Source: Clostridia bacterium
Lineage (GTDB): Bacteria > Bacillota > Clostridia > Monoglobales > Monoglobaceae
Direction of reading: 5' to 3'
Assembly (NCBI GenBank): GCA_017503225.1
Contig: JAFVTM010000021.1
Location: 1 to 41,283, forward strand
DNA length: 41,283 bases
Below, one piece after another: positions 5,429 through 31,036 of the stretch (positions within the stretch are counted from its first letter, which is position 1; every line of letters begins with the position of its first letter). Made by a program: the position numbers and the translations under genes. A model generated the notes under the pieces. The model was not told the DNA's origin, did not search any database, and worked only from the letters and a program-made list of their open reading frames with translations.

Positions 5429-7348
5429 ATGCAGATATATCACAATTCCCGAGATAAAAAATTCAGAGAGCCCTTTGGAGCTTTGCCAAGTGAGAGCAGT
5501 GTAGAAATTTCTCTTTTGGTGGAGGAAACGGGTGATGATACCAAGGTTTTCCTCAGAGTCTGGGATGGGGAAGAACGGCTCATTCCTATGGAAAAAGGCG
5601 ATGACGGGATGTTCTCTGCTCGCTTGGAAATGCCAAAGAGCCCCACTCTTTTGTGGTATTATTTTATTGTTGAGGAAAACGGAAGAAGATATTTTTATTG
5701 CAAGACAAAAAATGGTGAGGGCGAAATTCTTGACCATTCAAATGACAGCTCGTGGCAGATAACGGTGTATGACAAGAATTTCAGGACGCCAGAGTGGTTC
5801 AAACACTCGGTTATGTATCAGATTTTTCCGGACAGGTTTTTCAAATCTGAAAAGCCTTGCGAAATATCAGACAAAAAAACCGAATATACTTTATATGAGG
5901 ACTGGTATTCGCCCCTATTTATAAAAAAGCATCCTTTTGAGGATGGTCCTGCCTACAACGACTTTTTCGGCGGAAACTTAAGAGGAATAATTGAAAAAAT
6001 TCCGTATCTTAAAGATTTGGGGATTGGGGTTATTTATTTAAATCCCATTTTTGAGGCGTTTTCAAATCACCGCTATGACACGGGGGATTATGGAAAGATT
6101 GACCCCATTTTAGGCACAGAGGAAGATTTCCGAGAGCTTTGCGAAAAGTGTGAAGAATCAGGAATAAGGATTATCCTTGACGGTGTTTTCAGCCATACGG
6201 GAAGCGACAGCGTGTATTTCAATAAATACGGAAGCTATGGCGAAGACACGGGGGCTTTTCGTGACCAACATTCGACCTATCGCTCATGGTATCAGTGGTG
6301 CGGAGAAAACGGAGGATACAATAGCTGGTGGGGATGCTCAAATCTTCCAAATGTCAATGAGATGGAGCCGACATATATTGACTATATTTTAGCAAGTGAT
6401 GATGCTATAATAAAAAAGTGGATAAAGAGAGGGGCGTTTGGATGGCGTCTTGATGTGGCGGATGAGCTTCCGGATGAATTTATAAAAATTCTTCGCAAGG
6501 AAGTGAAAGGAGAAAATCCTGAGGCGGTTGTTATCGGCGAAGTGTGGGAGGATGCGTCAAACAAGGAAAGCTATGGTGTGCGTCGGGAATATCTTTTGGG
6601 GGATGAGCTTGACAGCGTCATGAATTATCCTTTTAAAGACGGCGTTTTGGCGTTCTTGACAGGGGGGATTTTGGCAGAGGAATTTTCAGAGCGTATGGGC
6701 GAACTTTTTGAGCATTATCCCTTTGAGGCTCTTTATTCTGCTATGAATATACTTGGTACTCACGATACAATGAGGGCAAAAACCTGCCTTTCGGGGCAGT
6801 ATATAGACCCGAGTTTATCAATGGAGGAAAAGGGAAAGTTCAAACTTGATGCAAAAAGAGAAACACGGGCAATCAAGAGGCTCAAGCTGGGAGCATTTTT
6901 GCAGATGACTTTTGTTGGTGTTCCTTGTATATATTATGGTGATGAAATTGGGATGCAGGGACTCTCGGACCCGTACAACCGTATGCCTTACAATTGGAGA
7001 TGCGTGGATGTGGAATTGCTTGAGTTTTATAAAAAAATCACTGCACTCAGAAATTCCTGCTATGCATTGAGAACAGGAGTGTTTGAAACCTTATATGCAA
7101 GAGACGGAGTTTTTGTGTACCTGAGAAAAATCGAGAACGGCAAGGATGTTTTTGGAACACGGGCAGAAAACGGAAAGTATCTATGCATTGTGAACAGAAA
7201 TGAAAATGCTGAAAAAATTGAACTTGAATTTCCTGATGTGGTGCGTTTGGAGGCCCTCTTGGGTGACAATAGTGTTAGATGCAGAAACGGCATAGCAGAA
7301 ATTGAAATAAAAGCTTTGAGCTGTGAAATTTTTGGATGTTTTTCATAG
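5429..7348 (+). CDS. Glycoside hydrolase family 13 (alpha-amylase/neopullulanase-like)
   Basis: A 639-residue retaining alpha-glucan hydrolase. The N-terminal ~120 residues look like the beta-sandwich domain of neopullulanase and cyclomaltodextrinase enzymes. The (beta/alpha)8 barrel begins at SVMYQIFPDRFF. The three GH13 acids are visible: nucleophile D342 (GWRLDVAD), acid/base E371 (GEVWED) and D446 (GTHDT). No signal peptide is present, so it is probably cytoplasmic. It lies directly upstream of the glycogen operon, after addB on the other strand, and could trim limit dextrins or imported maltodextrins since no GlgX is seen here. The ATG follows GAGGAAAGG. Exact specificity (neopullulanase, maltogenic or cyclomaltodextrinase) cannot be read from the sequence. 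Confidence 0.9.
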   Translation: MQIYHNSRDKKFREPFGALPSESSVEISLLVEETGDDTKVFLRVWDGEERLIPMEKGDDGMFSARLEMPKSPTLLWYYFIVEENGRRYFYCKTKNGEGEILDHSNDSSWQITVYDKNFRTPEWFKHSVMYQIFPDRFFKSEKPCEISDKKTEYTLYEDWYSPLFIKKHPFEDGPAYNDFFGGNLRGIIEKIPYLKDLGIGVIYLNPIFEAFSNHRYDTGDYGKIDPILGTEEDFRELCEKCEESGIRIILDGVFSHTGSDSVYFNKYGSYGEDTGAFRDQHSTYRSWYQWCGENGGYNSWWGCSNLPNVNEMEPTYIDYILASDDAIIKKWIKRGAFGWRLDVADELPDEFIKILRKEVKGENPEAVVIGEVWEDASNKESYGVRREYLLGDELDSVMNYPFKDGVLAFLTGGILAEEFSERMGELFEHYPFEALYSAMNILGTHDTMRAKTCLSGQYIDPSLSMEEKGKFKLDAKRETRAIKRLKLGAFLQMTFVGVPCIYYGDEIGMQGLSDPYNRMPYNWRCVDVELLEFYKKITALRNSCYALRTGVFETLYARDGVFVYLRKIENGKDVFGTRAENGKYLCIVNRNENAEKIELEFPDVVRLEALLGDNSVRCRNGIAEIEIKALSCEIFGCFS

Positions 7349-18699: not shown

Positions 18700-18815
18700 T
18701 TTAGTGGTTTTTTGTGACTGACGGATTATGTGGATTTACCACAAGGGAGCAAAAGACAATAGTTATGCCGACCGTCTGGGCAGTCCTGTGTAGCTGTGCA
18801 GGACTGCCCTTTTTG
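18700..18815 (+). promoter_or_regulatory. ZTP (pfl) riboswitch with expression-platform terminator
   Basis: The leader matches the ZTP/ZMP aptamer by features: P1 TTTTG pairing with CAAAA (18710-18714 and 18750-18754), a GTGACTG segment, hairpin GTGG-ATTT-ACCAC (18730-18742), GGGAGC, then the P3 element GCCGACCG-TCTGGGCA (18767-18782) that carries the ligand-binding C-TGGGC signature. The last bases of P3 (GGGCA) also form the left arm of a terminator, GGGCAGTCCTG / CAGGACTGCCC (18778-18788 and 18799-18809), followed by T5. By family knowledge, ZTP or ZMP binding stabilises the aptamer and stops terminator formation, turning genes on when 10-formyl-THF is short. This agrees with the downstream pur and fhs genes. 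Confidence 0.88.
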
Positions 18816-24678: not shown

Positions 24679-24710
24679 TTTAAACAAAGGTTGAAAGGAT
24701 GATTTTTGAA

Positions 24711-25895
24711 ATGAAAGAATTCGAACTTAAATATGGATGTAACCCCAATCAAAAACCCTCAAAGATATTTATGAATGACGGTGCTGAGCTTCCCATTGAG
24801 ATTTTAAGCGGAAGACCGGGATATATAAACTTTCTTGATGCATTCAACAGCTGGCAGCTTGTGAAAGAATTGAAAGCGGCACTTGATATGCCTGCGGCGA
24901 CATCGTTTAAACACGTAAGCCCAACATCTGCGGCTGTTGGCACACCTATGAGTGCGGAACTTAAAAAGGCTTGCTTTGTTGATGACATTGAGGGCCTTGA
25001 TGAGTCTCCCTTGGCAACTGCTTATGCCCGTGCAAGGGGTACTGACAGAATGTCATCCTTTGGTGACTGGATTGCCCTCAGTGATGTTTGTGATGTTACA
25101 ACCGCAAAGCTCATAAAGCGTGAGGTTTCTGACGGTGTTATTGCTCCGGGGTACGAGCCTGAGGCTCTTGAAATCCTGAAGAGCAAGAGAAACGGAAATT
25201 ATAATATAGTAAAAATTGATCCTGAATTTGTCCCCGCAGAACAAGAAACAAAGATGGTTTTTGGCATTACCTTTGAGCAGGGCAGAAATAATTTCAAAAT
25301 TGATGAAGAATTGCTTGCTGATATCGTTACCGAGAACAAGGAAATGCCAGACGAAGCAAAGCGCGACCTTATCATTGCGCTCATCACACTTAAATATACA
25401 CAGAGTAACTCAGTTTGCTTTGCAAAGGACGGTCAGGCAATCGGTGTTGGCGCAGGTCAGCAGTCAAGAATTCACTGCACGAGACTTGCAGGTAACAAGG
25501 CGGACATCTGGCATCTCCGCCAGCACGAAAAGGTTTTAAATCTCCCATTCCTTGACAGTGTGGGAAGACCTGACCGTGACAATGCTATTGACGTTTATCT
25601 CTCAGAGGATGCAGAGGACGTACTTGGTGATGGCAACTGGCAAAAGCTGTTCAGCGAAAAGCCGGTAGAGTTCACAAGAGCAGAGCAGAGAGAGTATCTT
25701 GCAACTTTAAGCGGTGTGGCTCTTGGCAGTGATGCGTTCTTCCCCTTTGGCGATAATATCGAAAGGGCAGCAAGAAGCGGTGTAACATATGTTGCACAGC
25801 CCGGCGGTTCAATCCGAGATGATAATGTAATAGAGGCTTGCAACAATCACAATATGGTTATGGCGTTTACTAAGATGCGTCTTTTCCACCACTAA
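24711..25895 (+). CDS. purH: AICAR formyltransferase, stand-alone (PurH C-terminal domain)
   Basis: Transfers formyl from 10-formyl-THF to AICAR, giving FAICAR. Only the AICARFT part of PurH is present: it begins KYGCNPNQKPSKIF and has FKHVSPTSAAVG with the catalytic K67-H68 pair. The N-terminal IMP cyclohydrolase (MGS-like) domain of the usual ~510-residue PurH is absent, and its task is covered by the PurO-type gene. I prefer the ATG at 24711 (394 aa) because AAAGGATGAT lies 11 bases ahead. The ATG at 24699 overlaps the ribosome site and would add four residues. A large folded inverted repeat follows the stop. Confidence 0.93.
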   Translation: MKEFELKYGCNPNQKPSKIFMNDGAELPIEILSGRPGYINFLDAFNSWQLVKELKAALDMPAATSFKHVSPTSAAVGTPMSAELKKACFVDDIEGLDESPLATAYARARGTDRMSSFGDWIALSDVCDVTTAKLIKREVSDGVIAPGYEPEALEILKSKRNGNYNIVKIDPEFVPAEQETKMVFGITFEQGRNNFKIDEELLADIVTENKEMPDEAKRDLIIALITLKYTQSNSVCFAKDGQAIGVGAGQQSRIHCTRLAGNKADIWHLRQHEKVLNLPFLDSVGRPDRDNAIDVYLSEDAEDVLGDGNWQKLFSEKPVEFTRAEQREYLATLSGVALGSDAFFPFGDNIERAARSGVTYVAQPGGSIRDDNVIEACNNHNMVMAFTKMRLFHH

Positions 25896-25899
25896 AATG

Positions 25900-26028
25900 A
25901 AAGAGTGGTTAAATTAGTGCAGACCACACAAAAGCTTTGTGCTACACATAAACCTCGCCACTTGCGGTGCACACAGCACAGCGGCGGACTCGGTTTATGT
26001 GTTCTGCATCAAATTTACCGCACTCTTT
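25900..26028. repeat. Large composite inverted repeat, three-way-junction-like
   Basis: A 129-base intergenic element between the AICAR formyltransferase gene and purD. The outer arms AAAGAGTG...AGTGCAGA (25900-25923) and TCTGCATC...CACTCTTT (26003-26028) pair over about 22 bp with small bulges. Inside lie a perfect 6-bp hairpin, CACAAA-AGC-TTTGTG (25927-25941), and a perfect 11-bp stem, ACACATAAACC / GGTTTATGTGT (25944-25954 and 25992-26002), topped by a GC-rich loop. Two inner helices closed by one outer helix give a compact three-way junction. It could be a structured RNA, a mobile palindromic repeat (MITE-like) or an mRNA processing site. No gene lies in it. Confidence 0.8.
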
Positions 26029-26067
26029 TGAGGCTATTAGAAAATAAATCCGAAAGGTTTTGAAAAT

Positions 26068-27345: not shown

Positions 27346-28287
27346 ATGGTTTACAGAGTTTATGTTGAAAAAAAGAGTGAGCTTGCGGCTGAAGCAAAGT
27401 CACTTAAAAATGATTTGGTCAATCTGCTCCAGATAAAAGGGCTCAAGGACCTCAGAATAATCAACCGCTATGATGTTGAAAATATTGACAAAGAGCTTTT
27501 TGATTATTGCAAGGGTACAGTTTTTTCAGAACCTCAGCTTGACACGGTTTCAGAGGAAATTGAGATGAATGCTGATGCTGTTTTCGCTGTGGAATTTTTG
27601 CCCGGTCAGTTTGACCTTCGTGCAAATTCTGCTGAGGAATGTATTCAGCTGATTTCAAAGGGCGAAAGACCTACTGTTAAAGCGGCAAAAGTTTATTTGC
27701 TTTATGGTGACCTTTCAGATGGTGACATTGCTGAAATCAAAAAGTATGTTATTAACCCCGTAGAATCAAGAGAGGCAACGCTTGAAAAGTTTGATACCCT
27801 GAAAATCGAGTATGATATACCCACCACTGTTGCGACACTTGACGGATTTATTGAACTTTCTGAAGAGGGTCTTAAGAAAATGATTGATGATATGGGTCTT
27901 GCGATGGACATTGATGACATCAAGTTTTGTCAGCAGTATTTCTTAAGCGAAAAGCGTGACCCCACTATCACAGAAATAAGAATGATAGACACATACTGGT
28001 CTGACCACTGTCGTCATACTACATTCCTTACCACCATTGACAGTGTTAAGTTTGAGGATGAACTGCTTCAGTCGGCTTATGACAGGTATATAAAGACCAG
28101 AGAGGAAATCGGCAGAACCAAGCCTATAAACCTTATGGATATTGGTACAATCGCTGCAAAATACTTAAAAGCAAACGGCAAGCTTGACAAACTTGACGAA
28201 AGCGAAGAAATCAATGCTTGTACTGTTAAAATTGATGTGTGTGTGGACGGCAAGGATGAAAAATGGCTGTTGCTCTTCAAAAAATGA
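27346..28287 (+). CDS. purL: FGAM synthase PurL, N-terminal fragment before frameshift
   Basis: The first 313 codons of a large single-chain PurL (FGAR + glutamine + ATP to FGAM, purine step 4). It covers the N-terminal PurS-like domain, the linker and the start of the first synthetase domain (MIDTYWSDHCRHTTF). Reading stops at TGA 28285-28287, right after a run of six A. With one A fewer, the frame continues smoothly into the downstream fragment as [14 protein letters not shown], a canonical PurL motif. ATG follows AGAAAGGAAC. As written, this product ends within the catalytic domain and would be inactive. Confidence 0.9.
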   Translation: MVYRVYVEKKSELAAEAKSLKNDLVNLLQIKGLKDLRIINRYDVENIDKELFDYCKGTVFSEPQLDTVSEEIEMNADAVFAVEFLPGQFDLRANSAEECIQLISKGERPTVKAAKVYLLYGDLSDGDIAEIKKYVINPVESREATLEKFDTLKIEYDIPTTVATLDGFIELSEEGLKKMIDDMGLAMDIDDIKFCQQYFLSEKRDPTITEIRMIDTYWSDHCRHTTFLTTIDSVKFEDELLQSAYDRYIKTREEIGRTKPINLMDIGTIAAKYLKANGKLDKLDESEEINACTVKIDVCVDGKDEKWLLLFKK

Positions 28288-31036
28288 GACACATAATCAC
28301 CCAACAGAAATCGAGCCATTTGGTGGTGCGGCTACCTGTATTGGTGGTGCTATCCGTGACCCGCTGTCAGGTCGTTCATATGTTTATGCGGCTATGCGTG
28401 TTACCGGTGCGGCTGATCCGCTCAAGCCCGTATCAGAAACCATAGAGGGCAAACTCCCACAGAGAAAGATTGTTACCGGTGCGGCAGCAGGCTACAGCTC
28501 ATACGGAAACCAGATTGGTCTTGCCACAGGTCAGGTTGATGAGCTTTATCATGATGGATATGCGGCAAAGCGTATGGAAATCGGTGCGGTTATTGCGGCG
28601 GCTCCTCAGGAAAACGTAAGACGTGAACGCCCAGAGGATGGGGACATCGTTATTCTTCTTGGCGGAAAGACCGGTCGTGACGGCTGTGGCGGTGCTACTG
28701 GTTCTTCTAAATCTCACACAGTTGAGTCTCTTGAATCCTGCGGTGCAGAAGTTCAAAAGGGCAATGCTCCTGAAGAAAGAAAGCTCCAGAGACTTTTCCG
28801 CAACAGCGAGGCATCAAAACTCATCAAACGTTGTAACGACTTTGGTGCAGGCGGTGTTTCTGTTGCTATTGGTGAACTTGCTGACGGTCTTGAAATTGAC
28901 CTTAATGCTGTTCCTAAAAAATATGACGGACTTGACGGCACAGAACTTGCAATCAGCGAATCTCAGGAGAGAATGGCTGTTGTTGTAGAAGCAAAGGACG
29001 TTGAAAGATTCAAAGAACTTGCAAAAAGTGAAAATCTGGAGGCAACTGTTGTTGCCGTGGTAAAAGAAAAGCCATATCTTGTTATGCACTGGAACGGCAA
29101 GGAAATTGTGAACATTTCACGTGAATTCCTCAATTCAAACGGTGCTGAAAAGCATATTGATATTGCCCCTGAGAAACCTCAGACTTTTGACAAGGAAATT
29201 CCTGCGGATTTCAAGAATGGTTACATAGCACTTGCGGGTGACCTCAATGTTTGCTCAAAGCGTGGACTCTCAGAGAGATTTGACTCAACTATTGGTGCAG
29301 GAACAGTTCTTATGCCTTTTGGCGGAAAGCATCAGCTCACACCTATTCAGGCTATGGCAAACAAGGTTTCTGTTGAAAAGGCACACACAAACACCTGTTC
29401 TGTGATGGCTTGGGGCTATAACCCATTCATTGCTGAAAAGAGCCCTTATCACAGTGCTTATCTTGCTGTTGTTGAATCTGTTTCAAAGCTTGTGGCAACA
29501 GGTGCGGCATTTAAGGACGTATATCTTACTTTCCAGGAATATTTTGAAAAGCCCAAGAAAGACCCGAAACGTTGGGGCAAGCCTTTTGCTGCGCTTCTTG
29601 GTGCTCTTGATGCACAGAAAAATCTTGAAATTGCGGCTATCGGCGGCAAGGACTCTATGAGTGGAACATTTGAACAGATTGACGTTCCCCCAACACTTGT
29701 TTCTTTTGCTGTTACTACTGAAAAGAACGAAAATATTATTTCGCCTGAATTCAAAGCAGCAGGCAATAAGGTCGTATGGATTAAACCTGAATATGACAAG
29801 AACGGTCTTCCTGTGACGACCAGCCTTCTTGAATGCTTTAAGACAGTTACTGACCTTGTTCACAGCGGCAAGGCGGCTGCGGTATATACACCTGTTTACG
29901 GCGGTGTGGCTGAAGGCATAATGAAAATGGCTATGGGTAATGGCATCGGCTTTAAGTTTGATGACGGAATCTCTATGGCTGACATTTTTGGCTACAGCTA
30001 TGGCTCATTTGTTGTGGAACTTATGACAGACGAAAATGTAGGTACTGTTTTGGGTTATACAACTAAAGCAGAAGAAATTTCGTATAAGGGCGAAACCCTT
30101 AGTCTTGCTGAACTTCAAAAGGACTATGAGGGAAAGCTTGAAGAAATTTATTCCTGCAACATTGAAACCGAAAAGAAAGACATTCCTGCATTCAGTTTCA
30201 AGGCAGAAACTCGCGTTGCTCCAAAAATCAGCGTGGCAAAACCAAAGGTTCTCATTCCCGTATTCCCCGGAACGAACTGTGAATTTGACAGTGCAAAGGT
30301 TATGCGTGATGCAGGCGCTGAGCCTGAAATCTTTGTAATAAACAATCTCTCGCCACAGGCGATTTCAGAGTCGGTTGAGGCGTTTGCAAAGAGCCTTAAG
30401 GAATCACAGATAGTGTTTATTCCAGGTGGTTTCTCAGGCGGTGATGAGCCTGATGGTTCAGCGAAATTCATTACTGCATTCTTCCGTAACCCTGAAATCA
30501 AAGAAGCTACAACCGAGCTTCTTGAAATGCGTGACGGACTTATGTGCGGTATCTGTAACGGCTTCCAGGCTTTAATCAAGCTTGGTCTTGTGCCTTATGG
30601 AAAGATTATTGACACTGACGAAAATTGTCCTACACTTTCATACAACACCATCGCACGCCACCAGTCAAAGCTGGTACGTACAAGGGTTGCATCAAACAAA
30701 TCGCCTTGGATGAATTATGCAAATGTTGGAGATATTTATACTGTTGCAATTTCTCACGGTGAGGGTCGCTTTATGGCAAGTGATGAACTTGTGAAATCTT
30801 TGGATGAGAATGGTCAGATTCTTACTCAGTATGTTGATTTAAGCGGAAATCCCACAAATGAAATTCAGTATAACCCCAATGGCTCTGCCTTTGCAATCGA
30901 GGGTATTACATCACCTGACGGCAGAGTTCTTGGTAAAATGGGACACACCGAAAGATGGGCAGACGGACTTTATAAAAACGTTGACGGAAACTTTGATATG
31001 GGTATCTTCCGTTCAGCTGTTGAATACTTTAAATAA
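28184..31036 (+). CDS. purL: FGAM synthase PurL, C-terminal part after frameshift
   Basis: Continuation of purL in the +1 frame. Homology begins at [15 protein letters not shown] (codon at 28283); the codons from the ATG at 28184 to that point overlap the N-terminal fragment and are not PurL-like. It contains the rest of the first AIRS-type synthetase domain, the second one (GKHQLTP...KVSVEKAHT and [12 protein letters not shown]), and a C-terminal class I glutaminase with [12 protein letters not shown], the nucleophile Cys in [10 protein letters not shown], and HGEGRF. Removing one A joins both parts into 1229 codons, the right size for the large PurL of Clostridia. No ribosome site precedes the 28184 ATG, so independent translation is unlikely. 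Confidence 0.9.
28279..28284 (+). other. A6 homopolymer: single-base frameshift in purL
   Basis: The two purL frames meet at six consecutive A. Five A would read TTC AAA AAT GAG ACA, giving FKNETHNHP without interruption; six A give TTC AAA AAA TGA. The change is one extra base. It may be a sequencing or assembly error, a true recent mutation, or an A-run where polymerase slippage restores the frame in part of the transcripts. Confidence 0.9.

Follow-up and report, generated by a model that had tools for sequence, protein, structure and literature searches.

The element at the purH-purD junction

The window (the whole stretch of 41,283 nucleotides of Clostridia DNA analysed here) contained an AICAR formyltransferase gene (purH-like, PF01808) followed by purD (GARS domains), and between them a folded element which started 3 nt past the TAA stop codon of the former and ended 38 nt before the latter. 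The minimum free energy (MFE) fold of positions 25899-26029 was a three-way junction (-52.1 kcal/mol, z -4.8, none of 200 shuffled sequences as stable) with three helices: P1, the closing helix of 23 bp with small internal loops (25899-25908, 25910-25915 and 25917-25923 paired with 26003-26009, 26012-26017 and 26019/26021-26029); P2, of 6 bp (25927-25932/25936-25941); and P3, with a base of 11 bp (25944-25954/25992-26002) and a GC-rich apical hairpin on top. The junction strands measured 3, 2 and 0 nt. The sequence-only reading of this DNA had placed an outer helix, two inner helices of 6 and 11 bp and a GC-rich apex between these same two genes, and all of this was borne out, its coordinates being correct to 1 nt. 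The features of the junction were the following:

25893-25895, + strand: TAA stop codon of the AICAR formyltransferase (purH-like) gene (24699-25895)
25899-26029, + strand: whole three-way-junction element, the only copy in the window genome (fold and covariance-model matches)
25899-25923, + strand: 5' arm of P1, outer part variable, middle A-rich (TAAATT), inner part GTGCAGA (fold, covariation)
25927-25941, + strand: P2 hairpin, CACAAA-AGC-TTTGTG (fold)
25944-26002, + strand: P3, stem ACACATAAACC/GGTTTATGTGT and conserved apical hairpin (fold, covariation)
26003-26029, + strand: 3' arm of P1, TCTGCAT, CA, then AATTTA and CACTCTTTT (fold, covariation)
26030-26067, + strand: spacer including the purD ribosome-binding region, identical here too between genomes G000 and G001

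The same reading had recognized no known riboswitch, and the Rfam scan of the window agreed: no family matched the element, and the sole match was a ZTP/ZMP riboswitch (RF01750, 67.6 bits) upstream of purE (18704-18788). Elsewhere in the window, purL was seemingly split by a frameshift (27346-28287 and about 28301-31036, with the break at about 28184-28301); the gene was uninterrupted, a single open frame, in the other species that were examined, and the split may be an assembly error.

A Clostridia family with a covarying fold

By DNA search, five more genomes of the genus proved to have the element at the purH-purD junction, and one of them also had a diverged copy elsewhere. A first covariance model was built from six copies and a second one from 34 copies; the two models matched the window at 25898-26028 (E 7.5e-32 and 5.3e-26). 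The covariance models recovered copies throughout the genus (9 of 9 genomes); the six-copy model matched 16 of 38 genomes of the family, with many copies, and the 34-copy model was positive at the level of the order in 21 of 51 genomes and at that of the class in at least 44 of 391 (30 genera), the class-wide counts being floors because few candidates were scored per genome. A phylum-wide sample of 299 genomes, which served as specificity control, gave no match except the window's own genome. The number of copies per genome ranged from one (the window genome, 69% complete, and G007) to about 36 (G011), and the element was the window genome's single copy of a large dispersed family, whose members were roughly 110-250 nt long and had three helices.

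In the 34-copy alignment, which was fitted to the covariance model and is thus biased towards structure, 39 of 44 pairs had changed on both sides and 92% of the pair cells were standard; the covariation score was 0.505, against 0.153 for shuffled alignments (none equalled it) and at most 0.099 when the arms were slid. In a six-copy MAFFT alignment, 15 of 44 pairs had changed on both sides, and none of 500 shuffles was as high. The fold is far beyond chance, and the compensatory stem changes that the sequence-only reading had named as support for an RNA were found. Sequence variation between copies was greatest in P1, with complementarity kept, even in those copies in which this helix extended into the last codons of the gene. 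P2 was missing, short or longer than 100 nt in the relatives, and some long P2 arms enclosed terminator-like hairpins (judged by eye). P3 held the most conserved letters of the family, with an apical consensus of about CACCWCTCGgcGTAC...GTACgcCTTCGG.

The Rfam scan of 20 loci with relatives returned tRNAs only. Records of PurH relatives were mostly metagenome-assembled genomes named Clostridia or Oscillospiraceae, frequently of animal-gut origin. Spread by phages or plasmids was rejected: phage and plasmid records gave no match to the element, and viral contigs gave none for one strict pattern. No description of the element was found in the literature. Rfam lacks the family, which is apparently both unannotated and undescribed, the last word being provisional because the 3161 human-microbiome candidates of PMC8040213 were left uncompared.

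Stop-codon anchoring, dispersal and retention

Of 72 copies, 60 had their 5' end at -15 to +8 nt from the stop codon of a gene on the same strand, as against 4.4% of random intergenic positions; the 3' end, taken as a mirror test, gave 3 of 72. The genes upstream of the copies encoded Hsp70, IleRS, AlaRS, RpoD, RpoC, citrate synthase (twice), RNase Y, HisD and FtsW, among others, and this functional mixture argues for a generic role. The downstream neighbours were on either strand, often with no same-strand gene downstream, and copies inside operons were found at purH-purD, at purF-purM and behind Hsp70. Because of the anchoring and of the mixed core genes upstream, the element goes with the end of the gene that precedes it; the link to the purine operon in the sequence-only reading held for the site itself, between a purH-like gene and purD, but not as a purine-specific association, since the relatives follow unrelated genes. 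It is nearly certain that membership of a class-wide Clostridia family, the three-way junction fold and the anchoring at stop codons constitute the identity of the element.

The copies were dispersed in related genomes. Six units in G183 lay behind unrelated genes and shared a mean identity of 86% over 330 nt past the stop codon, while their flanks shared 31-35%, and tandem copies also occurred. In the copies of G183 and G096 (L208-L219) a hairpin was located directly 3' of the unit, with a 5' arm resembling the start of the unit's P1 (GGGGCTGTAAA.. and GGGRATGTAAA.., respectively), as if terminator and element shared an origin. The purF-purM junction and the junction of purL with the next gene held the element in some species and were empty in others. 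The sequence-only reading had offered a structured RNA or a palindromic mobile repeat, and conserved pairing with compensatory changes together with many dispersed copies make each half partly right; the unconserved pairing and lack of further copies that it had named as fatal were not what was found. The mobile half does not extend to a classical MITE with terminal inverted repeats and target duplications: there were no conserved terminal repeats (the P1 arms differ between copies, yet are complementary), orientation and position were locked to the upstream stop codon, and no target duplications were noticed in the G183 copies or at the empty and filled junctions of the purine operon, the pairs compared there being not very close.

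The element occupied the purH-purD junction in every species of the genus (9 of 9). Outside the genus the purH-purD gap was usually 17-30 nt, and among the purH-purD junctions of 80 relatives only two records had the element, both corresponding to members of the genus. Other inserts were also observed in purine operons: the purH-purD spacers of L105, L147 and L155, from other Clostridia, held unrelated arrays of small hairpins (type GTGAAAT-hairpin-GTGAAAT), and the spacer between purN and the IMP cyclohydrolase gene in G002 (L162, about 6397-6589) held a different insert of 193 nt which folds strongly. The sequence of the purH-purD copy was strongly constrained: the 172 nt of the spacer were 100% identical between G000 and its sister species G001, against 79% for third codon positions, 96.4% for the ZTP riboswitch and 82% for the 266 nt upstream of purE. 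Given the difference from third codon positions, this copy looks selected, and a recent exchange of the stretch between the two species could also account for the identity.

Folding strand and possible roles

On the sense strand pairing was nearly all Watson-Crick, and A-C mismatches were more frequent than G-T (93 vs. 40 flanked single sites, the A-C cells of the alignment being clustered in three columns): G-U was not tolerated over A-C on this strand, and the reverse was seen on the antisense strand. Thirteen of the 15 conserved unpaired positions were pyrimidines in the sense strand. On the opposite strand the A-C mismatches become G-U pairs and the pyrimidine loops become purine loops, both of them usual for RNA. 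The antisense MFE was lower in 66 of 72 copies (z -7.3 vs. -6.6 for sense), an advantage that is real but largely compositional. A T-rich stretch followed P1 in 36 of 66 copies on the opposite strand and in only 7 of 66 on the sense strand (at least 5 T of 8), and a sense intrinsic terminator was rejected on this last count; A-runs behind the stop codon were nearly as common at other stop codons. An antisense promoter downstream of the element was likewise rejected, as no enrichment of such a signal was detected there. The strand tests slightly favour the antisense strand as the one that folds.

The explanation that we propose is that of a dispersed, orientation-locked, folded gene-end element which spread as a repeat and was kept as a boundary, a statement to which, as a whole, we give slightly less than an even chance. 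The family would have spread as a non-autonomous repeat by putative machinery, and copies would have been retained since the fold marks the 3' boundary of the upstream gene; the action of the folded element as a boundary at that gene end is a tentative part of the proposal. Most likely, the element would fold in RNA and act as a barrier at the end of the gene, either to antisense transcripts on their way into it, as the leaning of the strand tests suggests, or to 3' exonucleases about to enter the upstream cistron, which REP hairpins hold back in E. coli, or to both. In operons such as purH-purD the boundary of the upstream mRNA would be set and sense transcription would be left open, because no T tract follows P1 on the sense strand. 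Sense transcripts of some long-P2 copies may rarely hold the whole fold, because of the terminator-like hairpins inside P2.

Four other explanations were weighed. The element may be a selfish non-autonomous repeat acting at the DNA level, whose folded strand opposite the gene is the substrate of a putative transposase or recombinase and whose position at gene ends reflects target choice and purging. A repeat of this kind would account for the recent near-identical copies, the tandem ones, the empty sites and the patchy distribution, and also for the nearly complete Watson-Crick pairing, with A-C outnumbering G-T in sense, and for a P1 that at times reaches the last codons and stays complementary. 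We nevertheless consider it rather unlikely, as the fixed orientation and the narrow range of a few nucleotides past the stop codon are hard to explain by tolerance alone, and the purH-purD copy was strongly constrained and retained. RAYT transposases were rejected as general mobilizers: a RAYT-like gene was present in 14 of 44 element-positive and in 104 of 347 element-negative genomes of the class, and no copy was found in the regions of roughly 5 kb examined around Y1 transposase genes. The element-rich genomes G002, G006 and G004 (L236-L240) encoded RAYT-like tyrosine transposases of 245-262 aa with a C-terminal extension, which scored just under the cut-off of the NCBIfam REP_Tyr_transpos model.

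A hairpin of the sense mRNA, protecting or processing the upstream message or slowing terminating ribosomes behind the stop codon, is a role reported for REP sequences of E. coli. The way in which the copies are placed and oriented with respect to the stop codon before them, the generic nature of the upstream genes and the copies inside operons would all suit it, but it appears unlikely, given that G-U was not favoured over A-C in sense, that the conserved unpaired positions were mostly pyrimidines, in contrast to typical RNA loops, and that some copies had terminator-like hairpins in P2.

An antisense non-coding RNA gene on the opposite strand, the terminator of which would consist of P1 and the U-run and adjoin the stop codon, is suggested by the purine-rich conserved loops and G-U pairs of that strand, by the T-rich tail after P1 and by the lower antisense MFE; however, there was no promoter-like enrichment upstream of the putative RNA, ordinary stop codons were nearly as A-rich and the difference in energy was largely compositional, making this explanation quite improbable. 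A riboswitch, leader or attenuator of the purine operon that acts on purD in sense, to which the position upstream of purD and the constrained sequence might have pointed, is hardly credible, with no Rfam match, no bias of the sense strand towards G-U rather than A-C, relatives that follow unrelated genes and have downstream genes in either orientation or frequently none on the same strand, and an operon whose ZTP riboswitch sits upstream of purE.

Several known systems resemble the element proposed here as a gene-end boundary. REP sequences are palindromes of 20-40 bp with GTAG/CGTC tags which often adjoin coding regions, some of them providing the stop codon (PMC3733652). Like REPs and BIMEs, the element was dispersed, folded, intergenic and mostly located between unidirectional or convergent genes; it differed in being a three-way junction of 110-250 nt with covarying arms and a fixed orientation, and in not being associated with a cognate RAYT. 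The comparison also took in ERIC/BOX-type repeats, the intrinsic terminators that follow stop codons in Firmicutes and the attC sites of integrons. ERIC/BOX-type repeats, compared by description only, are also dispersed, palindromic, intergenic and of similar size, whereas the element was anchored at stop codons in one orientation, had conserved internal loops and was found in Clostridia only. Intrinsic terminators share the position directly after the stop codon, and some copies had terminator-like hairpins in P2 or directly downstream, but the element had no sense T tract after P1 and had a complex conserved core. The attC sites fold from the bottom strand, with arms of variable sequence, right behind stop codons; the element showed no R/L boxes by eye and accompanied core operon genes instead of cassettes.

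Some gut Clostridia carry tens of copies of a repeat which is locked to stop codons and to one orientation, yet is absent from Rfam. The family makes several questions testable, namely which marks are present at gene ends in these bacteria, how repeats find stop codons, and whether there are dedicated structures that block antisense transcription; its covariance model can also be used for annotating the intergenic spacers of Clostridia. More speculatively, the family may represent a new class of mobile three-way-junction repeats at the stop codons of core genes, acting as boundaries on the strand opposite the gene (as an antisense block or in the form of folded single-stranded DNA); strong selection would afterwards have fixed some of the copies. 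The near-constant position behind the stop codon and the single orientation suggest an unnoticed mark or boundary at the ends of genes.
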